DNA of 41,599 nucleotides from Paraglaciecola polaris LMG 21857 (GTDB lineage: Bacteria > Pseudomonadota > Gammaproteobacteria > Enterobacterales > Alteromonadaceae): positions 1 through 41,599 of the forward strand of contig NZ_BAER01000129.1 in NCBI RefSeq assembly GCF_000315055.1, given 5' to 3'. Positions 69 to 41,599 of the stretch are shown here, piece by piece. A program made the position numbers and the translations under genes. Under the pieces are notes generated by a model. That model saw nothing but the letters and a program-made list of their open reading frames with translations. It was not told the origin of the DNA and did no database searches. The first letter of the stretch is position 1; every line of letters starts with the position of its first letter.

Positions 69-812
69 CTAAAACTTAACGGGATAGTAACCTTGTGTGT
101 CTTTCTTTCCAAAAAATTGAGCTGCTTGGTGCACTTCTGTTGGCAATGCCGGATCCGGTTTGAAGCGGCCATTAATACGAAATGCCAATGAACTGGGAAT
201 ATGAGCTACAGCACTTAGACCGAAGCTATTAGGTTCATTAATAGTCATGACAATTTCTTCGTTGTCACACTTAAGGTCCGCTTCAAAGTTGCCCAACTCT
301 ATATCTTGCTGGGTACCCTGTACCTTAGCTTTAAGCCATAAGCCTTGCCCCGTTAATGCCTGACAATGCTCAGTGTAATCCAATTCTTGTAAAGCAATTT
401 TGAATCGGCCACTGGCATTAACCGGAATGGGTAAAGGCAAGCTGCTGATCACCAGACTTGTGGGTAAAAATACTTGCACACCTTCACCTTGCAGACGACC
501 GTTGGAAATCACGACATGACCGTCGATAGAAATATCTTCCATTTCGCGAATATTACCAGCGTTGACATCCAAACTCGCGCTGCCGGTGAGTAAAGGCCAA
601 AAAGCCAGTTGCCAATTCACATCGTGAATGGGTAAGCCTTGTACCGTTACGATTGTCGCATGGCCATTCCAAATAGTGCCTGATACGCCATGAACAGTGA
701 TCTCATCAGGTAGCTGAACGCGAGAAATAACCTGCGCCGCAGGTAACTTTGCAATAAGAAAAGCGACATAAATGGTTAGGCAAACAACGCCCCATTTTAA
801 AACTGACTTCAT
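69..812 (-). CDS. gspN: Type II secretion system protein GspN
   Basis: Predicted 247-residue inner-membrane protein of the type II secretion machine. It has one N-terminal membrane segment (about residues 5-23) followed by a periplasmic beta-rich domain. Length and the position as last gene after gspM fit the GspN family (PulN/OutN/EpsN). GspN is an accessory component of the inner-membrane platform, dispensable in some species. Its ATG overlaps the gspM stop as ATGA (809-812), so translation is probably coupled. The call rests on synteny plus domain architecture, since GspN sequences diverge a lot. Confidence 0.9.
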   Translation of the reverse strand: MKSVLKWGVVCLTIYVAFLIAKLPAAQVISRVQLPDEITVHGVSGTIWNGHATIVTVQGLPIHDVNWQLAFWPLLTGSASLDVNAGNIREMEDISIDGHVVISNGRLQGEGVQVFLPTSLVISSLPLPIPVNASGRFKIALQELDYTEHCQALTGQGLWLKAKVQGTQQDIELGNFEADLKCDNEEIVMTINEPNSFGLSAVAHIPSSLAFRINGRFKPDPALPTEVHQAAQFFGKKDTQGYYPVKF

Positions 813-1288
813 GATTTACCTAATTTCAAACGACGGATTTTGATCTGCCCTGGGGCATCGGCTTCAGCGATATCTAAATCTAAAATACTGATCCCCATCT
901 CTTCGAGTGATTTAAGCCAATCTAATACATCGTTGAACGATGCTTGATCAACCCAAACTTGCAACTCATCTGCTTGTGGCTGCATACGAGCTATGGCGAT
1001 ATTATTGTTTGCAGCGGTTTGGTTTGCCGCTTGGGCAAGGGATCCATTAAAACCAGCACTTACACCTTGAGCGGCTCTGAGTTGAATGGCCCGATTAGCG
1101 TTTTTATGTACCCAGCTTAATAAAGATTGTTGCCCAGTCACCGCTTTTTGGTCTCGCTCAATAGCCTGATTAAGTGGCGACCACACTAACCAATAAAACA
1201 TGCCTACTATCACCACAACCGCTGAAATAAGGACTAAGCGTTGTTCACGTTCGGTTAGTTGACTAAATTTTTGTTTAATATTATTCAT
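809..1288 (-). CDS. gspM: Type II secretion system protein GspM
   Basis: Small bitopic inner-membrane protein (159 aa). It has a short cytoplasmic N-terminus, one membrane helix at about residues 18-37, and a periplasmic ferredoxin-like domain. In this family GspM binds GspL and helps anchor the GspE ATPase to the membrane platform. A good ribosome site (GAGGAG, 6 bases before ATG) precedes it, and only one base separates it from the gspL stop. The 3' end overlaps gspN. Size, topology and operon position all agree. Confidence 0.93.
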   Translation of the reverse strand: MNNIKQKFSQLTEREQRLVLISAVVVIVGMFYWLVWSPLNQAIERDQKAVTGQQSLLSWVHKNANRAIQLRAAQGVSAGFNGSLAQAANQTAANNNIAIARMQPQADELQVWVDQASFNDVLDWLKSLEEMGISILDLDIAEADAPGQIKIRRLKLGKS

Positions 1289-1289
1289 G

Positions 1290-2483
1290 TTAACTCCTCA
1301 CAACCAAAGAACCGTACACTAAGTCATTACGGTTATTGATGGCTCCCTGCTCCACTTCAAAACCTTGCGCTTCAGCTAAACGTTTAAATTGTTCAAGGGA
1401 TTCAAAGTTCGCTGCCATCGCTTGCATACGCAATTCTCTTCGTGCGGAGTCGAATTTAACACTGGCCGGTTTTACTTGGCTTTTGGCGAAAGCTTCGCTC
1501 AATTGATTCATCATAACCAACATGGATGAACTGCCAGCTCCCTGCTCAAGGGCTGCCATTTTACTACGCATAGTTGCGCGTACATCCCGATATGCCCCCG
1601 CACTGGGAAAGGCGCGTTGAAACTCTTCTTTTATTTGCTGAGACAAGGCAGCCTTTTCCCCGCTAAGCTGCTGTTGCAAGGCAACTTTATCAATCAAGGT
1701 GGTACATAATGCAATGCCCGCTAAAACAGCCGCAAGCCGCCACTTTCTGAAATTACCTCCTTGCTTCTTACGTGATTTAAACTCCCCTTGCAGCAAATTG
1801 AACTGCGTACTCTGTAGACCGTCCGCGAGGATTTTCATTGGCATATCGACACGCTGTTGTTGCACGGTGACATTGTTCAGATCTTGGGCGGTTAAACTAC
1901 TGTAGTTATCCAAAATTAAAGGGGTGATTAACGGCTTAGCATGATGGTTTATCGCTTGTATCAACCAGTTTTTTTCACCTTGGATACCCGCCCACTGGTC
2001 TTGGCGGATCAATAACTGCTCACCAAGCTCAAGAGCTGCCCAGCCTTCGACTGGCTCTGGCACCGCTAAAATATCCGGTAAAATGCGTTCACAATGCAAC
2101 CCCGCATCAGCCAGTTGTGACTGCCACGCTCGCAGACGTAGCTTACTGACCACAGCAACCGCTTGTTGATTGTTTTTTCGCCCACCTAGGGCAAAAAACT
2201 GAGTAGCGATATCGCCGCTAATTTCGTCTTCAAGCATGAAAGGAATGGCACTCAGCGCTTTACGTCCACCTTTCGCTGGCAAGGTAACCCACTTAAGTAA
2301 TACGTCGCTGGTGGGAACAAGCGCTATAATAAGTCGCTGACCTGCGCGATCGACTAACGATGACAGATGACCCGCATCGGGGAGCTCGCCACTGGCGATA
2401 ACATCGTCGTCTTGAGGGGAGCAGACTATCCAATGGATCACATCATCTTCATTCGAACCCAGTCTAACTATTAATTGTTCCAT
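1290..2483 (-). CDS. gspL: Type II secretion system protein GspL
   Basis: 397-residue platform protein. The N-terminal cytoplasmic part (about 1-240) corresponds to the actin-like GspL domain that binds GspE. A membrane helix follows at about 247-265, then a coiled-coil-rich stretch and a periplasmic ferredoxin-like domain at the C-terminus. It recruits the ATPase to the inner membrane and pairs with GspM. The start is fixed by an in-frame stop shortly upstream. It is the only gene of the operon preceded by a sizeable gap (79 bases after gspK). Confidence 0.94.
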   Translation of the reverse strand: MEQLIVRLGSNEDDVIHWIVCSPQDDDVIASGELPDAGHLSSLVDRAGQRLIIALVPTSDVLLKWVTLPAKGGRKALSAIPFMLEDEISGDIATQFFALGGRKNNQQAVAVVSKLRLRAWQSQLADAGLHCERILPDILAVPEPVEGWAALELGEQLLIRQDQWAGIQGEKNWLIQAINHHAKPLITPLILDNYSSLTAQDLNNVTVQQQRVDMPMKILADGLQSTQFNLLQGEFKSRKKQGGNFRKWRLAAVLAGIALCTTLIDKVALQQQLSGEKAALSQQIKEEFQRAFPSAGAYRDVRATMRSKMAALEQGAGSSSMLVMMNQLSEAFAKSQVKPASVKFDSARRELRMQAMAANFESLEQFKRLAEAQGFEVEQGAINNRNDLVYGSLVVRS

Positions 2484-2530
2484 TATGTTGGCCTACTCTG
2501 GTCATTCCACATGTGCTTTATGCCACTCAT

Positions 2531-2544
2531 ACCCATGTGTGGGT
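2531..2544. repeat. Small hairpin in the gspK-gspL gap
   Basis: ACCCA-TGTG-TGGGT forms a 5-base stem with a 4-base loop inside the 79-base gspK-gspL spacer. Read on the plus strand it is followed by a T-run at 2549-2554, so it resembles a weak antisense terminator. On the gsp strand it has no T-run. Function unknown. Confidence 0.35.
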
Positions 2545-2562
2545 TAGGTTTTTTATCATTAT

Positions 2563-3567
2563 TCATAATGTGCCAAATTCTCTGCGCAATATACTCACAT
2601 TTTGACTATCGTCCACAGCGAAAACAGTGGCCATAGAAAACGTGGCATTATTGTACGTGGTCTTAACCTGTAAAATGAAGTGTGAGGTGGTCACATCAAA
2701 CCAATCTTCCCGCTCGCTTGGCATATTCAGTGCTGTAATGGCATTATCGGCCAAAAAATCGGCTTTGGTTTTAAAGCCCTCTTTAGGACGGTTGGCGATG
2801 ACATCTTGCGCGTCAGACAAGGCTAAGCCTGTCAAAGCCGCTAATACTGGAGCGCTTTTTTCATCTACGGTATTGACGTTTATTTTTAACTGATCATTAC
2901 CTGGAATGACACAGACCTGCTTTAGCAATAAGTCTAACCACTCAATACTCACCCCATTGACCAAACGTAGCTCGGATTTATGGGCCATTAGATTATTAGC
3001 AGCAAGATACGGAAACTGACGCGATTCATACTCGCTGTCCTCAGCACCTTGTTGCAACATATTACTATCCGCGTCTAACCAATCCACTAAAGAGTCGCTA
3101 AAGGTGTCAATATCGTAAGTACTAATATCACCGTTAATATTTTCCATCAGCCGCTTAAATGCCATTTGACGCTCACTGGACCCAGAACTTGTGTCTTCGG
3201 TATTGCTACCTTGCTCGCCTGAACGCAAACTGTTCACATTGAAACAGCTTTGCATGTCAGACAATTGCGCTTCAATCCCCCCGCCATCTAGAGGATACAC
3301 AAAAGGTTCAGACCATTGCTGATCCAAATGAATGACACCATCACTGTTATCTAATAGGTACTTAATTGATTTCTGGGCATATTGCTCAGCGCCCATGGCA
3401 TACCAGTAGGCCTGATTATTATCTTTAATATTCGACGCCCGTTTTACTTGTAGCTGTAAACGGGAGCCCATTTCCGTTGCCAAGACACTGACCAATGCCA
3501 CTATCAGCAGCACAATGATTAAGGCCACGCCTTTTTGCTGTCTTATAACCTGCCCTATGCCGCTCAT
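2563..3567 (-). CDS. gspK: Type II secretion minor pseudopilin GspK
   Basis: 334-residue minor pseudopilin. It has a short basic leader ending KG, then a hydrophobic helix (VALIIVLLIVALVSVLATEM). As is typical of GspK, the usual Glu at position 5 of the mature pilin is missing. The large periplasmic domain contains the alpha-helical insertion of the family. GspK caps the pseudopilus tip together with GspI and GspJ. Its ATG overlaps the gspJ stop as ATGA (3564-3567). Processing needs a prepilin peptidase that is not encoded in this window. Confidence 0.95.
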   Translation of the reverse strand: MSGIGQVIRQQKGVALIIVLLIVALVSVLATEMGSRLQLQVKRASNIKDNNQAYWYAMGAEQYAQKSIKYLLDNSDGVIHLDQQWSEPFVYPLDGGGIEAQLSDMQSCFNVNSLRSGEQGSNTEDTSSGSSERQMAFKRLMENINGDISTYDIDTFSDSLVDWLDADSNMLQQGAEDSEYESRQFPYLAANNLMAHKSELRLVNGVSIEWLDLLLKQVCVIPGNDQLKINVNTVDEKSAPVLAALTGLALSDAQDVIANRPKEGFKTKADFLADNAITALNMPSEREDWFDVTTSHFILQVKTTYNNATFSMATVFAVDDSQNVSILRREFGTL

Positions 3568-4232
3568 GAACTGCTACCTGACAGTAAAAACTCCCGGCGG
3601 ATCACACCGAAATCTTGGCTGGTAAATTCTATCGCCACTGCTTTGGGTAATACTGCAGCACTGTAATCGTCCTGCCATGCAGAATCGCCTTCTTCTTCCT
3701 CATCCGCAGGAATAAAATACACTTTGAAGTCATCGATGTTTTCCAACAGTATTTTAACCTTGGGCTCATATCCAATCACGTTGTCTACGTAGTTGCCGTA
3801 AAGACGTTGCAATTGACGCTCTTGCACACGATAACCAACGCCTTGCAAGGTACTGCGTGGTAGGCGCAGCTGAGGGTTATGCCAACCCCCATGCACAAAT
3901 GCGAGCCCATCGTGGTTGCTATCGAGCACCCCATCGCCACCTAGCATCACTCGCTCACTCACTTCACCTTCCACTCGCACAGGCCTTGCGACAGCTTGTA
4001 ATACATCTCGCTCGATGGTTAACATGGCTCGCTGTAACGTTTGCAGCTTGTCGAACCGCTCATTAGATAGCTCATCACTATCGATGACGCTGGTAAGCAC
4101 GCCCGTACTGGCAATACCAATAAGGGTAAATATCGCCATCGCAATCAAAATTTCCAGCAGAGTAAAACCAGCGACAGCCTTTGAAACAGTGGGGAATTGG
4201 GTAGCGTTTTTTCGCGTGCAGTGGCTATACAT
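3564..4232 (-). CDS. gspJ: Type II secretion minor pseudopilin GspJ
   Basis: Minor pseudopilin of about 222 residues, with a prepilin cleavage signal AVAG^FTLLEILIAMAIF including Glu5. GspJ sits in the GspI-J-K tip complex of the pseudopilus. I prefer the ATG at 4232 to the longer open frame reaching 4292. It starts 5 bases before the gspI stop, the normal overlap for this operon, and avoids an implausible 41-residue leader. Even so the leader (about 22 residues) is longer than usual for the family. Confidence 0.92.
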   Translation of the reverse strand: MYSHCTRKNATQFPTVSKAVAGFTLLEILIAMAIFTLIGIASTGVLTSVIDSDELSNERFDKLQTLQRAMLTIERDVLQAVARPVRVEGEVSERVMLGGDGVLDSNHDGLAFVHGGWHNPQLRLPRSTLQGVGYRVQERQLQRLYGNYVDNVIGYEPKVKILLENIDDFKVYFIPADEEEEGDSAWQDDYSAAVLPKAVAIEFTSQDFGVIRREFLLSGSSS

Positions 4233-4614
4233 CGCTATCTCGCTTAGCCACAAAAGTTGATACAGACGTGATGGGCGCAGAAAACTTTTCATCTAAAGCG
4301 ACGCTGACTTCTACTGACAATAACTCTTTGTCATTGGTTTTTGTCACTTTCTGCTGCCAATACCAGGTACGGTCGGACATTTCTTGCTCACCTTTGGCAT
4401 TGTTCTTGGGCGGCCATTTACTAGATAACTGTAATTCCGTTAGACGATTGTTCGCCACCCATGTCGCATAGGTAATTTCTTCTATCTGGCCGATACTGCC
4501 AAGATGATCACTGGCGGCTTTCATGATGGCGGTAGCGGTCATAGCAAAGATAACCAACGCAACCATCACCTCGAGTAAAGTCATGCCTTGGTGCTGCCTA
4601 GCATGTCGACTCAT
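4225..4614 (-). CDS. gspI: Type II secretion minor pseudopilin GspI
   Basis: 129-residue minor pseudopilin with a short leader (MSRHARQHQG) cut before MTLLEVMVALVIFAMT, then a small globular domain. GspI is the core of the tip complex with GspJ and GspK. The length is normal for the family. It overlaps gspH by ATGA (4611-4614) and gspJ by 8 bases, suggesting coupled translation through this part of the operon. Confidence 0.95.
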   Translation of the reverse strand: MSRHARQHQGMTLLEVMVALVIFAMTATAIMKAASDHLGSIGQIEEITYATWVANNRLTELQLSSKWPPKNNAKGEQEMSDRTWYWQQKVTKTNDKELLSVEVSVALDEKFSAPITSVSTFVAKRDSDV

Positions 4615-5255
4615 AAACGATCCAGCGGCCCATCGACCGTTACCGGTAATGAATCTTGCACATTCAATCGAAAATAACTGGGAGATTCGGATGAAAATCC
4701 AGGCTCAAATGCAAACGCCAAAGAGAAAGGAGTGATATCGCCGCTAGACAATAAAAACACTTGGGGCGGGGGCAATTTCTTGTCATCGTCGTCGCCTATG
4801 CTGACGCTCTCGTCACTGATCGAGAGCTCGGCATCAATAGATGACTCGTTGAACAAACTATCATCTGTGTCCCAAGGTAAATCATTTAGCTCTAACTCAA
4901 AGGTAAACTCTTCGGGCAAGGTGTAGGCTTCAAACGTTTTGTCACCAGAGATGAGTTGCCAATTTTGTTCTTCATCGAGGCGCATAAAGCTGTATTGATT
5001 TTTATCACTGTCTATGCGCAATCCTAACTGCTGCTGGTTCAAGACCGCATAATCAGATGCCATACTAAACACCACTTGAAAACGCTGCACTTGCTTTTTA
5101 AGTCTGTCTTGGCCACTTTGCCCACTAATGTTGAACACCACAGTGCCTGCGAGCAGCCCCATGATAACCAGCACCAACATCACTTCGAGTAATGTGAAAC
5201 CTCGCGATTTTTTGAACATAGCGCCAAACTGGCTAAAACAGGCAGACTGCGGCAC
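4611..5255 (-). CDS. gspH: Type II secretion minor pseudopilin GspH
   Basis: Minor pseudopilin with the cleavage site SRG^FTLLEVMLVLVIMG, followed by an acidic domain. GspH links the major pseudopilin shaft to the tip complex. The start is uncertain. The frame opens with GTG at 5255, 7 bases after gspG, giving a leader of about 19 residues. An internal ATG at 5219 (MFKKSRG) would give the short leader typical of this family, but has no clear ribosome site. The mature protein is the same either way. Confidence 0.92.
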   Translation of the reverse strand: MPQSACFSQFGAMFKKSRGFTLLEVMLVLVIMGLLAGTVVFNISGQSGQDRLKKQVQRFQVVFSMASDYAVLNQQQLGLRIDSDKNQYSFMRLDEEQNWQLISGDKTFEAYTLPEEFTFELELNDLPWDTDDSLFNESSIDAELSISDESVSIGDDDDKKLPPPQVFLLSSGDITPFSLAFAFEPGFSSESPSYFRLNVQDSLPVTVDGPLDRL

Positions 5256-5262
5256 TGGCCGA

Positions 5263-5703
5263 CTAACCTAAGTAGTCGTTAAGATTCCAATTACCAATAT
5301 CGTCATCTGTGCCCGCTTCGCCGTCAGGGCCGTTAGAAAATATATCAATGACTCCCACTTCACCTGGACTCAACAACTGATAAGAATTCCCCCAAGGATC
5401 GTCAGGTAAACGTTTTATAAAGCCGCCTTCCTGATAATTACGCGGGATAGGGTCGATCGTCGGGATTGTCACCAAGGCATCTAACCCTTGTTCACTGGTA
5501 GGGAATACATTATTCCGCAGCTTGTACATTTCAAGCGCGCTTTCGAGCTGTTGAATATCCACGGCGGCCTTTTTCAATTGCGCCTGTTCCTGATTGCCTA
5601 GTATAGATGGGGCAATCATCGAGGCCATAATGCCAATGATCAGTAATACCACCATGACTTCAATTAAGCTAAAGCCGCGCTGTGTGCGTTGTAACGTTTT
5701 CAT
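5263..5703 (-). CDS. gspG: Type II secretion major pseudopilin GspG
   Basis: 146-residue major pseudopilin that forms the periplasmic pseudopilus shaft. The leader ends RG and is cut before FSLIEVMVVLLIIGIMAS, with Glu5 present. Conserved family features follow: FPTSEQGLDAL, LPDDPWGN, and the C-terminal Asp-rich loop DGEAGTDDDIGNW, which binds calcium in characterised homologues. The length matches GspG closely. Its ATG shares one base with the gspF stop (TAATG). Confidence 0.98.
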   Translation of the reverse strand: MKTLQRTQRGFSLIEVMVVLLIIGIMASMIAPSILGNQEQAQLKKAAVDIQQLESALEMYKLRNNVFPTSEQGLDALVTIPTIDPIPRNYQEGGFIKRLPDDPWGNSYQLLSPGEVGVIDIFSNGPDGEAGTDDDIGNWNLNDYLG

Positions 5704-6923
5704 TAAAGATTCACCATATTGTTTAAAGCTAAAATAGGTTGCAGGATCGCCATTACGATAAACAGCACAATCCCTGCCATAGAGACAATCAAAAGTGGCT
5801 CAAACACTTTGAGTGACACACCAACCAAAGACTCAAATTCTCTGTCTTGGTTATCCGCTGCGCGCCCCAACATTTGCGTTAACTCACCACTGCGCTCACC
5901 GGAAGCAATCATATGCATCATCATAGGCGGGAACATCTTGGTGCGTTCAAGAGCTGCGCGCAGACTCGAGCCTTCTTTCACGTTAACCGATGCCCCTTTG
6001 ACCTCATCACGAATGTACAAGTTCGCCAGCACATCACTAGAAATTTTCATGCTCTCAAGCAAAGGCACCGAACTGGAGGTTAAAATACTTAACGTGCGGG
6101 CAAAACGTGCGGTATTAAGGCCTTTCGAAACCTTGCCCAGCAGGGGTAAACCAAGAATAAAATGGTGATAGCGTTTTTTCATCACGGGTTGCTGCAATAC
6201 CCGACTGACAATCACTGCCACAATGGCCAGAAAAACAATGAGTAGCAAACCATAGTTTTGCATCCACTCACTGACACTGATCAGCACTTTGGTGATAGTC
6301 GGTAGGTCCTGACCCATATGATCAAACTGACCGACAATTTTTGGTACCACCACAGTGAGCAATAAAATAACGATGCCCATAGCAAAGAACATCATCAGCA
6401 TGGGGTACACCATAGCTTGCGTGATCTGACTGCGGGTTTGCTGGCGCTTTTCGGTGTAATCAGCCAAGCGATTGAGCACAGTATCCAAGTGTCCCGACTT
6501 TTCACCTGCGGCCACCATAGCGCGGAAGAGCTCATCAAATACATGGGGGAATTCAGCCATAGCGTCTGCTAAATTGTAACCTTCGACGACTTTGCTGCGC
6601 ACCGCCATCATCATATTTTTTTGCCGTGGCTTTTCAGACTGTTGCGCCACGGCCATCAAGGCTTCTTCAATCGGCAGGGATGACTCAACTAAGGTAGCTA
6701 ATTGCCGAGTAAGCAGTGCCAGATCCGATGCGGAAATTTTCGCCTTAAACAACGAAAATTGATTCGCCGACTTGCGCTCTTTTTCAGCGACTTGTTCGAC
6801 TTCCAGTGGAATAAGTTGCTGTTCACGCAATTGCTGGCGTATCTGGCGAGCATTATCGCCCTCCAATACGCCGCTCTTATTTTTACCGTTTTTATCAATC
6901 GCTTTAAATGCAAAGGCTGCCAT
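5703..6923 (-). CDS. gspF: Type II secretion inner-membrane platform protein GspF
   Basis: 406-residue polytopic protein made of two repeated T2SSF domains (about 70-190 and 270-395). Membrane helices lie near 170-195, 220-240 and 375-398. GspF is the integral-membrane core that couples the GspE ATPase to pseudopilus assembly. The characteristic MVAAGEKSG and MIASGERSG repeats mark the two domains. One base separates it from gspE. Length and motifs are canonical. Confidence 0.98.
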   Translation of the reverse strand: MAAFAFKAIDKNGKNKSGVLEGDNARQIRQQLREQQLIPLEVEQVAEKERKSANQFSLFKAKISASDLALLTRQLATLVESSLPIEEALMAVAQQSEKPRQKNMMMAVRSKVVEGYNLADAMAEFPHVFDELFRAMVAAGEKSGHLDTVLNRLADYTEKRQQTRSQITQAMVYPMLMMFFAMGIVILLLTVVVPKIVGQFDHMGQDLPTITKVLISVSEWMQNYGLLLIVFLAIVAVIVSRVLQQPVMKKRYHHFILGLPLLGKVSKGLNTARFARTLSILTSSSVPLLESMKISSDVLANLYIRDEVKGASVNVKEGSSLRAALERTKMFPPMMMHMIASGERSGELTQMLGRAADNQDREFESLVGVSLKVFEPLLIVSMAGIVLFIVMAILQPILALNNMVNL

Positions 6924-38137: not shown

Positions 38138-38498
38138 CGCGCGATCCAATTCGAAAATTTATCTTAAGCCACCGACAGTGACAGGTACAAACACTGACTC
38201 AAACCAAGAAATACAAAGTTGAGAGTGATGAAATGTTGAAGATCCACATAGTGGTTGTTTCGGCATATGAAGTCCAGAATGAATTTGAACTTAATGCAAT
38301 AACAATCACTTAGCGCATTGATTAATGCACAACAAGGCCGAGGATAAACTGGATGGAACGTGACGTGGTGGGCCCGGCGATTAAGTTGTTTTTCAGGCTA
38401 ACGCAGAAATGGAGAGAGACGGCTAAACGGTTTACGTTAAGAACTCAGCCTCACATGATGGGCGTCTTTGGGTGAACAGCGGTCGTTGGAGTTATGTA
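38138..38498. other. Non-coding border of the cassette array
   Basis: 361 bases between the MFS gene and the first clear attC site. It contains one attC-like inverted repeat (38327-38391) and some partial repeats; any frame here (for example 38437-38712, minus) runs into the array site and the GNAT gene and is not credible. This is probably the distal edge of the array, or a decayed cassette. Confidence 0.4.
38327..38391. repeat. Degenerate attC-like site at the array edge
   Basis: Complementary ends GCACAAC (38327-38333) and GTTGTTT (38385-38391) bracket a partly self-complementary 65-base segment (GGCCG...GGCCCGGCGA). The ends only approximate the attC consensus boxes, so this is a tentative call. 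Confidence 0.3.
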
Positions 38499-38605
38499 TT
38501 TTAACGCTTTGAATATTGGGGAAATTGTGAGTGTTTTGGCACAAAGTGCCAGCGAGAAATTGTCCCAAGCCAGCTTGTTGGCTGAACAACATTGGCTTGT
38601 TATAA
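38499..38605 (-). repeat. attC: attC-like recombination site of the GNAT cassette
   Basis: On the minus strand it begins TTATAACAAGC and ends CAAAGCGTTAAAA. The two ends are the inversely repeated R'' and R' boxes, and the 107-base middle is imperfectly self-complementary (GGGACAATT... AATTTCCCC). The GNAT stop codon TAA lies inside R'', as is usual in integron cassettes. Confidence 0.75.
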
Positions 38606-39031
38606 AGCTTTTGCATAAATATTAGGGGCATAAACCTCCATGAAAGTATCTGGCTTTTGTAATGGTGTAAATCCATACTTTTGGTAAAGTCCATGTGCAT
38701 TTGAAGTCGCAAGCGTAAATCGCCGAACCCCTTTAATACTTGAGTGAGCCATTACTGCTTCCATTAACTTACGGGATATTCCCTGCCCACGATATTCGGG
38801 CCAAACAATGACATCGACAAGATTTGCAAATGTTGCCTGATCGGTAATGACTCGACTGAACCCAACTTGCTCCTTGCCTATATAAGCCCCGATACAAATC
38901 GAGTTTTCAATACCAACATTTACAGTTTCGTAGTTAATTCCTTGCGCCCAAGTGCTTTCCGTCGTCAAAAAATAATGAATTTTTACAATATCAAGTAGTG
39001 ATTTGTCATCGCTAACTGTTACAGCTGACAC
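38600..39031 (-). CDS. GNAT-family N-acetyltransferase
   Basis: 143-residue protein with the GNAT fold. The acetyl-CoA-binding motif V-WPEYRGQGISRKLMEAV lies at about 75-95 (RGQGIS is the Q/RxxGxG pattern), and the late motif HGLYQKYGFTPL is characteristic. Acceptor unknown. GTG start with a perfect ribosome site (AAGGAGGT), 15 bases from the preceding attC core; the stop is inside its own attC. This is the first cassette of the array seen from the left. Confidence 0.88.
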   Translation of the reverse strand: MSAVTVSDDKSLLDIVKIHYFLTTESTWAQGINYETVNVGIENSICIGAYIGKEQVGFSRVITDQATFANLVDVIVWPEYRGQGISRKLMEAVMAHSSIKGVRRFTLATSNAHGLYQKYGFTPLQKPDTFMEVYAPNIYAKAL

Positions 39032-39045
39032 GGAACCTCCTTGCT

Positions 39046-39126
39046 TTATAACGCTTTAAACAGCGGAAAACTTGAACGTTTTGGCGCAGCCAGTGAGTGG
39101 TTTTCCGATGGTTTAACTTGTTAAGC
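39046..39126 (-). repeat. attC: attC-like recombination site of the NTF2-like cassette
   Basis: Minus-strand ends GCTTAAC (39120-39126, matches RYYYAAC) and GTTATAA (39046-39052). Between them CGGAAAAC...GTTTTCCG forms a stem around a variable loop. Total 81 bases. It lies 6 bases after the stop of the disrupted gene and 15 bases before the GNAT start. Confidence 0.85.
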
Positions 39127-39132
39127 AAACAC

Positions 39133-39597
39133 TTATGCATGATGTCTACGGAAATGTTTGATAAGACCGTTATCACCAAATTCTAAAGATATTATATTAG
39201 TGCTTGTATACTCAATGACCTTATCTATATGGCTAGGTTTGACTTTTGCGTGCTCAGTATATTTAACAAATACCACATTGCGTCCAATCATCACCTGGTC
39301 AATTTTAATTTCACTGAAGATTAATTCGTCGTTCATCTCCGCAATCATTCCCTGTCGAAGTTATTCCTTACTTGTCGTAGTGACATTAAATTTCAGATGC
39401 TCATCAATGAAATCATCAGCTAAAAGTGAAATAAAATATTCTATGTCTTCGACGGTGGTGTTTGGTTGTTGCCTTGCATTTTTCGCATGTATGAATGCCT
39501 TAGCCTTTTGTTTTAGCTCTCTTTCAGACAGTGTCTCATCAGCAAAAGCTGATAGTGAGAAAAGAACTAAGGTGACTAACGAGATGATAAATTTCAT
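39133..39597 (-). pseudogene. NTF2-like secreted protein gene, broken by an in-frame stop
   Basis: Two open stretches (39361-39597 and 39133-39348) lie in the same frame on the minus strand, separated only by a TAA at 39361-39363 and three codons. The first has a signal peptide (MKFIISLVTLVLFSLSAFA) and a segment with EDIEYFISLLADDF; the second continues MIAEMNDELIFSEIKIDQ to FRRHH. Joined, they make one protein of about 153 residues resembling the NTF2/SnoaL-like fold. I infer a single nonsense change from a Lys, Gln or Glu codon. Restart at the ATG at 39348 would make only the C-terminal half. Confidence 0.75.
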
Positions 39598-39613
39598 TGG
39601 ACTATCCTTGTTT

Positions 39614-39715
39614 GCTTAACAGCCAGCTCAACTGCGTAGCAAACTGGCTTTTTTTGTGCTGTTTTTGTACAAAAAGAGACAGATTGCGGAGCCAGATTAC
39701 AGCTGCTTGTTATAA
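39614..39715 (-). repeat. attC: attC-like recombination site of the third cassette
   Basis: Minus-strand ends TTATAAC (39709-39715) and GTTAAGC (39614-39620; exact GTTRRRY match). The 102-base body contains complementary stretches near both ends (CAGCTG..., ...GAGCTGGCT). It begins 3 bases after the stop of the 39719-40138 gene. Confidence 0.75.
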
Positions 39716-39718
39716 ATA

Positions 39719-40138
39719 CTACCCTCGTAACTGCGATGTTATAGAATCTTTAATTGATTGCTCATAATCGCCAACTAAATCAAGGCAAGCTTCTTTTGTA
39801 CAATATGAAATAGACTGCCTTTGTTTACCATTATCTGGGTCTTTGTCAGTAACTTCATAGATAGTATATGACTTAAACTTACTTTCTTTAATTTCAACAA
39901 TGATTGGATTTGCAGCTATATCAATATTATTTGGGCGAAAATTAAAGAAGTAATTTTGATTAGTTGAATTTTGACAAATATATAAGATCGAAAGCTCTTT
40001 TGCTTGAAAGTCTGCACGAGTTTCGCAATCAATTGGGAACGTTAATTTGTCAGGAAATATTTTAACGACAAAGCCTTTTTCAGCCATTGCATATGAATGA
40101 AAAGAAAGAAGTAATAATGTTATAATAAGAGTTTTCAT
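39719..40138 (-). CDS. Hypothetical secreted cassette protein
   Basis: 139-residue protein that I do not recognise. A signal peptide (MKTLIITLLLLSFHSYAMA) is cut before EKG. The mature part holds four cysteines (DCETRADFQ, YICQNST, YCTKEACLDL) that could form two disulfides in the periplasm. Ribosome site AGGATGG. Complete between two attC sites, same orientation as the other cassettes and visibly AT-richer than the flanking chromosome. Function unknown. Confidence 0.7.
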   Translation of the reverse strand: MKTLIITLLLLSFHSYAMAEKGFVVKIFPDKLTFPIDCETRADFQAKELSILYICQNSTNQNYFFNFRPNNIDIAANPIIVEIKESKFKSYTIYEVTDKDPDNGKQRQSISYCTKEACLDLVGDYEQSIKDSITSQLRG

Positions 40139-40262
40139 AGAACCATCCTTTGTTTTTATTAGTTATTTTTATACGCTATATAATTTCTCATGACGAAACC
40201 CAGATATCAACGAGAAAATTCGTAGACTTTTTATCAGCAGAGTTCTGAATTAGACCGAGTAT

Positions 40263-40334
40263 TTATAACGCTTAATATAACTGGAAAATACGGAGCGACA
40301 GCGAGTAATTTTCCAGTTGATGTTTTTGTTATAC
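40263..40334 (-). repeat. attC: attC-like recombination site of the HEPN cassette
   Basis: The clearest site: 72 bases on the minus strand from GTATAAC (40328-40334) to GTTATAA (40263-40269). The core stem CAACTGGAAAAT...ATTTTCCAGTT is almost perfect around the loop TACTCGCTGTCGCTCCGT. The gene's stop codon (TAA, 40329-40331) is inside R''. Confidence 0.9.
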
Positions 40335-40862
40335 GAAAAGTCTAGACAATGCAGCATTTGCTGTTGAACGTCCGTACTGAATTAAACATAGCGGCCCAGA
40401 GTAATCTACATTGCAGGGTAATAGTTGTCGCATATATTTATGTGTAAATGCGGAAGATAACTCTGCTATATCAAACAATGGAGTACTACCAGCACTGAAA
40501 TGTTCTGCATTAAAATGAGCCACTACATTATCTCGGAAAGTTTTCATTTCTTTCCAATACTGAGTAAAATGTTCTCGTTCTATATTTAAGTTATCCAATA
40601 AACAATCTCTAAACTCATCATGTTCTGGAATAATTGTTTTCCAATGAGTTTCCTCTGCATTACTTCCAAAGACTTTACACCAGCTAACAGCAGAATCAGA
40701 TAATAAAGCGTTACAAATAGTCTTGAACGGAAACAGGTTACCTGTTCCATAATCTAGTTCATCAAGTTTGCCGTAAATAGCATTAAAAAGAGAATAAGAC
40801 CTAGAGAATGAGGCCAAATACATCATGCTATGTTCAATTTTTTGAATTTGCTCGGTATTCAT
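40329..40862 (-). CDS. HEPN/AbiU2-like hypothetical protein
   Basis: 177-residue, mainly alpha-helical cytosolic protein. The segment WKEMKTFRDNVVAHFN contains Arg110 and His116 in the R-x5-H spacing of HEPN RNase domains, and AVSWCKVFGSNAEETHW resembles the conserved block of AbiU2-like HEPN proteins. Such proteins occur in phage-resistance and toxin systems, but ribonuclease activity here is an inference. I start at the ATG at 40862, because the frame further up (to 40934) reads through the previous attC. The start is 6 bases after that attC. Confidence 0.7.
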   Translation of the reverse strand: MNTEQIQKIEHSMMYLASFSRSYSLFNAIYGKLDELDYGTGNLFPFKTICNALLSDSAVSWCKVFGSNAEETHWKTIIPEHDEFRDCLLDNLNIEREHFTQYWKEMKTFRDNVVAHFNAEHFSAGSTPLFDIAELSSAFTHKYMRQLLPCNVDYSGPLCLIQYGRSTANAALSRLFV

Positions 40863-40868
40863 ATTTCC

Positions 40869-40926
40869 GTATAACGCCTTTAGCAAGTGCGCGCTTTTCA
40901 GCGTCGCTTGCCTAAACTTGTTGTGC
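40869..40926 (-). repeat. attC: attC-like recombination site upstream of the HEPN gene
   Basis: 58 bases on the minus strand from GCACAAC (40920-40926) to GTTATAC (40869-40875). The inner stem TTTAGGCAAGCG...CACTTGCTAAA is close to perfect around a GACGCTGAAAAGCGCG loop. Compact form, like those in class 1 integrons. Confidence 0.85.
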
Positions 40927-41139
40927 GATAACATAAACTACAAAGTACATTGTCACCGCAGTTAATTAAGATAACGATTTTGAGTGGATATGCAGACTAG
41001 ATGGTTACTGCGACCAAAAGAACTAACAAACTGACTTTGGCTTCCTGCTCAATTTTTTATTAATGGTGCCACGTTTTTACAGAGCTGACTATTGCACAAA
41101 AGTACTATTTACGTTGAACCAGCTAATGTCACTTTAAGC
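40927..41139. other. Non-coding cassette body
   Basis: About 210 bases between two attC-like sites with no open frame of useful length on either strand. It looks like a gene-less cassette, which in other integrons sometimes carry small RNAs or promoters. I see no terminator or clear promoter in it. Confidence 0.45.
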
Positions 41140-41425
41140 GCACAACGCCCAAATAATGGGCTAAAAATAGTGGGCTAAAATGGAGCGAAGCGAACAGCCC
41201 GCTGTTTTTAGTCCTTTTGATTTTCTTGTATGGATAATAACTCGTGTAAATCATCCTGATTTTAATCGGGGTGAGGTAAAGTGAGACCCAAGCTTTAGCA
41301 GCAACTAAAGCCTTCTTTTGTGGTAGTTCGATTGATTGATGGCTCCTCAGTTGAGAGACCGATAACAAGAAAGAACGCCACAAAGGACTCCAAGCAAAAT
41401 ACTCGAATAGTCTACTGGGTCTCAA
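41129..41425 (-). CDS. Doubtful ORF at the array's right side
   Basis: 98-codon frame with no ribosome site and no recognised domain. Its last 25 codons (NSGLFASLHFSPLFLAHYLG) are simply the translation of the attC-like site at 41140-41212. If it is a gene at all, only the first two-thirds are outside the recombination site. I list it because a reader may see it annotated elsewhere; I think it is probably not translated. Confidence 0.2.
   Translation of the reverse strand: MRPSRLFEYFAWSPLWRSFLLSVSQLRSHQSIELPQKKALVAAKAWVSLYLTPIKIRMIYTSYYPYKKIKRTKNSGLFASLHFSPLFLAHYLGVVRLK
41140..41212 (-). repeat. attC: Probable sixth attC-like site
   Basis: The right-hand core box GTTGTGC (41140-41146) on the minus strand and complementary GCGGGCT...TTTTAGCCC with the loop TTCGCTTCGCTCC resemble attC sites. 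The R'' end is not clear (CTAAAAAC), so the outer boundary is approximate. Confidence 0.5.
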
Positions 41426-41599
41426 CCCGCATTATGCAAGCAAGAGTTAGCTTATTATGAATACAAAAACAAATCAAAGCGTTAACGTCGGCGCGAATTC
41501 AACTCCGAAGTGCACCACTCGCTAAATTAAGCTGCGCTGCGTAGTTCATTAAAAACAACTAAGGGTTGTCTATACCCGAGGCATTTTCTTGGCCTCAGG

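Follow-up and report, generated by a model that had tools for sequence, protein, structure and literature searches.

The window analysed here, a stretch of DNA of 41,599 bp, is the whole of contig NZ_BAER01000129.1 (C18) in the draft genome of Paraglaciecola polaris LMG 21857 (G000; 5.24 Mb in 146 contigs). Between positions 38,499 and 41,224, it holds six attC sites (a to f), all on the minus strand and separated by small gene cassettes, and this feature very probably belongs to a chromosomal integron whose integrase has been lost, as the distal part of its cassette array. By definition, it is a cluster of attC sites lacking integron-integrases (CALIN), and by origin a decayed chromosomal integron, because the attC array is without the integrase IntI, and an attI site with an intI remnant persists on another contig (C54). 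A preliminary description, made from the letters of the window, had proposed an integron cassette array of five, probably six, sites, read leftwards and with no integrase in view, which is borne out on each of these points.

The sites were scored with R1, a covariance model built from attC sites beside IntI genes of relatives and including no window sequence. In the following list, bit scores and E-values are those of R1, and z-scores refer to the predicted DNA fold.

41,140–41,224, minus strand: attC site a (body and R'); 51.0 bits, E 1.2e-10; z −2.0; R'' end displaced by an insertion of IS110 type (IS, insertion sequence), the R1 match being 41,140–41,235, with 11 insertion bases serving as R''
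40,869–40,926, minus strand: attC site b; 23.6 bits, E 0.0013; fold −10.5 kcal/mol, z −1.7
40,263–40,334, minus strand: attC site c; 43.7 bits; z −3.2; site type also in congeners
39,614–39,715, minus strand: attC site d; weak, 18.8 bits, E 0.022; z −2.4
39,046–39,126, minus strand: attC site e; 41.2 bits; z −2.4; site type also in congeners
38,499–38,605, minus strand: attC site f, last and weakest; 13.7 bits, only with filters off; z −1.8

A CALIN takes at least two attC sites matching an attC covariance model; here, R1 found five of the six (a–e) under default filters, with scores from 51.0 to 18.8 bits (E ≤ 0.022), and the sixth with filters off. Over the 41,599 bases, on both strands and with default filters, there was no match at E ≤ 5 beyond a–e. 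Site f reached 13.7 bits, compared with 7.6 bits for the next-best match in a filters-off search of 3.45 kb, and its R' position matches the terminal attC in the array of a closed congeneric genome (G012). An attC covariance model had been suggested as the check on the array, which would have suffered from the lack of any match, and the independently trained R1 does match the sites. Training relied on 45 of 92 listed sites, aligned with the R''/L''–L'/R' pairing imposed. This pairing covaries in the alignment, with 82% of cells paired (64% in shuffles) and changes on both sides in 172 cells (69 in shuffles); the further pair types are unexceptional, their count being reached by 78 of 500 shuffles.

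Two simpler scanners were also applied. The first, which required the R boxes of a site to be complementary at 6 of 7 bases, gave only site c on the minus strand; on the plus strand it gave three matches in 38,250–41,599 (one of them site c), and it gave 22 elsewhere in the window. It was dropped because, in an array, the R' of each site is part of the cassette that follows. A looser motif-plus-fold scanner, which served only for collecting training sites in relatives, returned b–f plus two scattered matches (22,452 and 22,868). The segment AAAGCGTTAAC at 41,476–41,486 was considered as a seventh attC core and ruled out, since its letters form part of the opening codons of a disrupted IS110-type transposase gene.

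The finer architecture follows the first description in part. The AGCGTTA core that it reported as recurrent is present in c, e, and f, and sites a, b, and d read GGCGTTG, GGCGTTA, and GCTGTTA, respectively. Stop codons do fall in or near R'', as described: those of c and f lie within it, that of d precedes it by 3 nt, and that of e precedes it by 6 nt if an in-frame stop is read through. Starts located 6–15 bases after R' apply to two of the four genes (c, 6; f, 14) and not to e (16) or d (124). The bottom strands of b–e fold end to end.

That these are real cassettes is most strongly supported by a circle signature, which is independent of any attC model. In a free cassette circle, a single site gives rise to both the R'' box of a cassette and the bases with which that cassette starts. 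In the array, the first 8–12 bases of each cassette complement its own R'' box, with exact matches between the R' of the preceding site and the own R'' of 8, 8, 12, 12, and 10 nt (cassettes b–f). The own-pair matches are the row maxima in 5/5 cassettes, and the true order is the unique best of 120 pairings, with a score of 50 (the next being 44). The cassette boundaries fit a circular intermediate, and the R''/R' matches delimit the following units.

40,875–41,145, minus strand: cassette b, 271 bp; 8-nt circle match
40,269–40,874, minus strand: cassette c, 606 bp; 8-nt circle match; open reading frame (ORF) 40,329–40,862, 177 aa
39,620–40,268, minus strand: cassette d, 649 bp; 12-nt circle match; ORF 39,719–40,138, 139 aa
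39,052–39,619, minus strand: cassette e, 568 bp; 12-nt circle match; NTF2-family gene, frame 39,133–39,597
38,505–39,051, minus strand: cassette f, 547 bp; 10-nt circle match; ORF 38,600–39,031, 143 aa

The integrase was searched for with TIGR02249 over the 5.24-Mb draft assembly, and none of the seven IntI-family matches exceeded the curated cut-off; no full-length IntI was found with the array. Recombinase matches on contigs C24, C20, C29, and C96 were rejected as IntI, being below this cut-off; the one on C24 adjoins an IS91-like transposase (by eye). IntI over the cut-off is present in 18 of 21 congeners and in 45 of 60 relatives, some copies containing stops (G001, G004).

The gene flanking the locus in Paraglaciecola sp. 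20A4, adenosine-deaminase-like by Pfam, has its counterpart on contig C54 of P. polaris, 892 bp from the contig end. The same contig carries the following feature.

C54 (locus L139), 4,464–4,687: attI and intI remnant, from alignment with attI regions beside full-length intI

The end of C54 is homologous to a region that adjoins full-length IntI in G015, G017, G009, G019, and G013 and extends from the start codon of intI across attI; the array thus starts with a genuine attI that has lost its intI. On C54, intI is cut to about 10 codons (MKNPPFLTHI, then a stop), with backbone sequence beyond. The preliminary description had expected an integrase and attI to the right of the window, or else a CALIN; of the parts of a complete integron, attI is present on C54 (its linkage to the window taken from synteny with G012), intact intI is absent, and the outcome has something of both alternatives. 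A CTGT-N8-ACAG box, which we take to be LexA-like, was found in G017, G019, and G012, and is one base short in G000 (four genomes checked).

The closed genome G012, which belongs to a different species from G000, offers the reference for the complete locus: the deaminase-like gene, attI, attC cassettes, and the major facilitator superfamily (MFS) gene are contiguous on one chromosome, with the same intI deletion. The terminal portion of C54 aligns with G012 at 90% identity over 692 aligned bases, up to ATATTG/TT in both, after which the sequences differ. The other end of the G012 array aligns with window positions 38,150–38,511, through the last R', and the cassettes differ. From this synteny, we infer that C54 and C18 represent opposite ends of a single array, and that further cassettes are missing from the unsequenced stretch that separates them.

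In G012, R1 matches lie at 5,056–5,158, 1,225–1,311, and 782–886 of locus L119, and the start of the first cassette and its R'' share 10 nt (by eye). The same locus contains, at 1,793–4,493, genes resembling a transposase associated with repetitive extragenic palindromic (REP) elements (Y1 type) and an oxidoreductase, on the opposite strand to the cassettes (by eye). Comparison of parts of G000 and G012 by blastn gave no common cassette, and the first cassettes differ. The shared intI deletion, together with a different first cassette, suggests either cassette movement at attI following the loss of intI or an exchange of the segment between lineages. The first description had also considered that the same genes could be found fixed in non-integron contexts of relatives; what G012 holds at the same locus is different cassettes. 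The array of P. polaris has presumably gained or lost cassettes since the loss of intI, and is presumably immobile now.

The boundary of the array on the side of the MFS gene is the following.

38,150–38,504, no strand assigned: array end to MFS gene start; 85% alignment with G012 through the R' of the last attC

The MFS protein at this end is 90–94% identical to proteins of Paraglaciecola sp. 20A4, P. mesophila, and P. chathamensis. Beside the MFS gene of G002, G006, and G007 (L121–L123), R1 gave no match at E ≤ 0.01. The roughly 130 bp at 38,374–38,504 that separate the last attC from the upstream region of the MFS gene occur in G012 and not in sp. 20A4, and are perhaps a decayed last cassette.

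In such a system, cassettes would enter as circles, the integrase recombining attI (or attC) with a folded bottom-strand attC, and they would be added in succession, the array being read in the direction from the deaminase-like gene to the MFS gene. The intI gene would then have been cut to its start codon and about 10 codons, with attI staying in place, and the array would remain as a store that is movable only with an integrase supplied in trans.

Several points weigh against an integron deprived of its integrase. The link between C54 and C18 is one of synteny, not of sequence, and a draft of 146 contigs could in principle have missed an IntI. Sites d and f are weak R1 matches, and the lowest-energy folds of a and f leave the R boxes unclosed, the suggested comparison of single-strand folding giving end-to-end folds for b–e. 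Regarding R1 itself, one of the 45 training sites comes from the G001 array, whose intI holds a stop codon (the remaining training arrays adjoin IntI over the cut-off and without stop), and the scanner choosing the training sites used motifs (AACAA, GCGTT) first noticed in the window. Genome-wide attC counts are lower bounds, since scoring in G000 covered 150 of 1,575 candidates and did not pick up site e.

A complete working integron, split by the assembly and with its full intI in a contig gap, is quite improbable. It would fit a fragmented draft, a window contig ending inside a repeated IS, and the tendency of draft assemblies to inflate CALIN counts, as stated in PMC9024848; nevertheless, beside attI there is only the remnant of about 10 codons joined to the backbone, the same junction is found in closed G012, and genome completeness is given as 100. 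It is very improbable that the array arose where no integron had ever been, from cassettes inserted at a secondary site. The locus does lack intI, and solitary attC sites, possibly single cassettes outside arrays, lie elsewhere in the genome (C98:37,679, C3:10,192, and C103:115,010), but the upstream boundary aligns with the attI and intI start of several integrons, up to the start codon. The chance that the sites are terminator-like or REP-like hairpins between small genes is close to nil. The modest fold z-scores of some sites (b, −1.7; f, −1.8) and the first crude scanner, which saw only site c, can be cited for it; however, the paired R''/R' boxes follow the cassette order uniquely, the attC-trained model has no matches in the other 38 kb, and congeners also have attC types a, c, e, and f. 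For b–e, hairpins are disfavoured by both the independent model and the circle signature, f being less secure.

A chromosomal integron that decayed in place, as preferred here for P. polaris, would not be an isolated case. Matches to R1 were obtained in 22/22 Paraglaciecola genomes (in G005 only at the limit), and intI decay beside a surviving attI looks recurrent in the genus, because attI copies adjoin IntI fragments or have no IntI match nearby. This attI type stands beside full-length IntI at five places (G015, G017, G009, G019, and G013). In G013, six attI matches (C2, C6, C22, C38, C40, and C46) adjoin short N-terminal IntI fragments, with a full-length IntI on C39, which may reflect repeated integron decay or duplication. 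At nine further places, attI has no IntI match nearby (G012:C1:4.79 Mb, G016:C12, G015:C47, G021:C98, G021:C38, G011:C255, G019:C58, G013:C29, and G014:C43), although contig ends may hide some.

CALINs and integrons that have lost intI are well known, as PMC9024848 and PMC12444791 describe. The P. polaris array resembles a CALIN in having at least two attC sites without IntI, and differs in that attI and the intI start codon are still recognisable, on another contig. According to PMC12444791, the chromosomal integrons of Xanthomonas are similar in their ancestral platform, truncated or deleted intI, and retained cassettes; there, strain groups with one intI lesion usually had identical arrays, whereas those of G000 and G012 differ. 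Among the publications listed for Paraglaciecola and integrons, none is about the integrons of this genus, judging by titles and the beginnings of abstracts.

The cassettes encode varied products. Cassette b has no ORF of 40 aa or more inside it, the ORF 40,329–40,934 entering only via an upstream extension. The protein of cassette c is perhaps HEPN/AbiU2-like, and a defence role is a guess: PF18734 (HEPN AbiU2) was matched at E 0.0038 with 17.2 bits, below the gathering score of 26.8. The HEPN motif is R-x(4-6)-H in a helical fold. In 15/15 aligned sequences (the window's protein and 14 others), R-x5-H (R110, H116) is invariant, and the predicted model is all helical (pLDDT 90.9); its fold search gave no match in the PDB at E ≤ 0.001. 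This protein matched 16 proteins, one of them 99% identical; class-wide, matches came from 6 of 369 genomes, i.e., its own and five at 25–34% identity, and from four plasmid records, all below 60% identity. The protein of cassette d has a signal-peptide-like start (by eye) and no Pfam or NCBIfam family at E ≤ 0.001; its search returned 13 proteins, one identical to the query. In cassette e, the NTF2-family gene is broken by an in-frame TAA at 39,361–39,363, and its product has 117 relatives, the closest being 154-aa proteins, several of which are named nuclear transport factor 2 family. Cassette f encodes a GNAT acetyltransferase (PF13508, E 3e-15). PADLOC, run on five cassette ORFs, gave nothing at E ≤ 1.

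Site a is interrupted by an IS110-type element, which starts at 41,225–41,229 (CTTGT) on the R'' side of the site. The features on this side of the array are the following.

41,225–41,456, plus strand: 5' non-coding region of the IS110-type element; bridge-RNA-like, with copies in congeners and marine plasmids
41,331, plus strand: left guide candidate ATTGATTG, within the 5' non-coding region
41,362, plus strand: right guide candidate ATAACAAG, within the 5' non-coding region
41,457–41,491, plus strand: start of the IS110-type transposase gene, about 11 codons (MNTKTNQSVNV), from homology to full copies
41,492–41,599, no strand assigned: IS30-type insertion end, the contig terminating inside this repeat; family name by eye from the ORF

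The transposase gene of the window is cut after about 11 codons by the IS30-type end; the IS30-type repeat is also found at C6 and C7 of G000, in G012, and in G007, with a copy of about 1 kb in L109. The first 267 bp of the element (41,225–41,491) recur in congeners with up to 99% identity. This repeat was considered as a multicopy cassette and ruled out, since full copies have a transposase gene after it. The transposase of full copies (318 aa in L118) contains the DEDD_Tnp_IS110 and Transposase_20 domains; its PDB matches at E ≤ 0.001 are IS621 (8wt6, E 3.3e-28, the best) and ISCro4 only. Full copies in relatives thus have both IS110 domains and an upstream non-coding region. This region, of about 230 nt, lies upstream of tnp, and about 30 nt are non-coding downstream, so the downstream region of the attC-targeting IS1111 elements is not found here, while the insertion of the window copy at the R'' end of attC is as in that group. 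Near the element ends, TATGG is the only common 5 bp (by eye), compared with sub-terminal repeats of 11–13 bp, which mark the IS1111 family according to PMC11187229.

Further copies are located in L110, L112–L118, L146–L153, and L155, and the upstream region is conserved into plasmids of Vibrio, Salinivibrio, Pseudoalteromonas, and Photobacterium. When 21 copies were scanned with R1 (thresholds E 5, 0.01, and 0.1; matches include a few element bases as R''; copies in L037, L087, L090–L093, L095, L099, and L108 were left out), an attC match overlapped the left junction in 11: the window, L124, L110, L114, L115, L116, L118, L146, L149, L150, and L153. The other 10 were below the R1 thresholds at this junction (L111, L112, L113, L117, L147, L148, L151, L152, L154, and L155). 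On contig C53 of G000, L124 (1–7,371) combines two attC sites (257–341 and 1,380–1,479) with the same IS110 left end, and carries a group II intron at 4,574–6,676 (Rfam RF02012 and RF00029; RVT_1 and GIIM domains). In L150, a Vibrio alginolyticus plasmid, a unit of about 3 kb that combines the IS110-type element with three cassette-like genes occurs as head-to-tail repeats (455–3,457 and 3,503–5,954), and the record matches the transposase at six places.

The upstream region looks like a bridge RNA, with guide candidates resembling attC, as far as sequence comparison and predicted folding can tell. Its consensus fold has 37 pairs, 11 of them with compensatory change, with a small covariation term (−2.67 of −39.9 kcal/mol). 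Rfam gave no match at the gathering score across the window, and two sub-threshold matches to long non-coding RNAs in 38,150–41,599. The guide region is readable in 25 copies, in 17 of which the right end can also be read. In all 17, a ATAACAAG, GTAACAAG, or ATAACAAAC segment complements 7–8 of 8 right-junction bases, and at the right junction, the 12 CAAG copies have CTTG and the five CAAAC copies have GTTTG. The left guide agrees with its own left flank at 100 of 189 positions in 21 copies (shuffled mean 87.8, reached by 56 of 20,000 shuffles), and, with one copy for each of 12 distinct guides, at 61 compared with 51.4 (reached by 59 of 20,000 shuffles), the offset being the best of six and relatedness only partly removed. 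A point against a simple reading of the guides is the comparison of core and guide in the 15 copies whose two junctions can both be read, in which the right core agrees in 15/15 and the left core in only 10/15 (disagreeing in L089, L113, L148, L150, and L151). Since the left core agrees in only 10 of 15, the right core may travel with the element, its agreement then testing the donor rather than the target. This guide swap and core control weakens the right guide and supports the left one.

In an RNA-guided model, the IS110-type family of Paraglaciecola and of the plasmids from Pseudoalteromonas, Vibrio, Salinivibrio, and Photobacterium would locate attC via a bridge RNA, whose left guide (ATTGAGCG-like) would read the L''-side of the attC bottom strand, and whose right guide (ATAACAAG or ATAACAAAC) would read the R'' box. 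On balance, we lean towards a joint view in which an IS110-type (IS621-like) family finds attC by a putative bridge RNA, and orphan attI copies may still exchange cassettes via integrases acting in trans.

Elements targeting attC are already known in the IS1111 group, e.g., ISKpn4, ISPst6, and ISPa25 (PMC11187229). They share with the window element the insertion at one attC end, a DEDD-kind transposase, and a non-coding RNA that finds the target (a role that is predicted for the window element). The ISKpn4 RNA maps downstream of tnp, whereas the long non-coding region of the window element is upstream; because some IS1111 elements, although few, also have an upstream non-coding region, its position alone does not decide the branch. 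Another parallel is IS621 with its bridge RNA (PMC11208160), which is the best PDB match and has a folded non-coding RNA with a target loop. IS621 targets REP elements, whereas the guide candidates of the window element resemble attC, with an RNA activity that is predicted only; in the available text of PMC11208160, attC occurs twice, both times in a reference title. Among the papers listed from the openly accessible literature, of which those cited here were read, none was found to describe an IS110-type attC-targeting element with an upstream guide region.

As CALINs and integrons with lost intI are already known, the array of P. polaris is one more decayed chromosomal integron, and the element in site a is a more novel lead than the array itself. 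If the joint view is correct, RNA-guided targeting of attC would exist in both the IS1111 and the IS110 branches, with the guide region on opposite sides of tnp, and attI copies without intI would still exchange cassettes through trans-acting integrases. With one intI deletion and different cassettes at attI, G000 and G012 make such trans activity on an orphan attI testable. The attC-associated IS110-type element, for its part, may provide a natural set of guide and target pairs on how bridge RNAs recognise structured sites such as attC.

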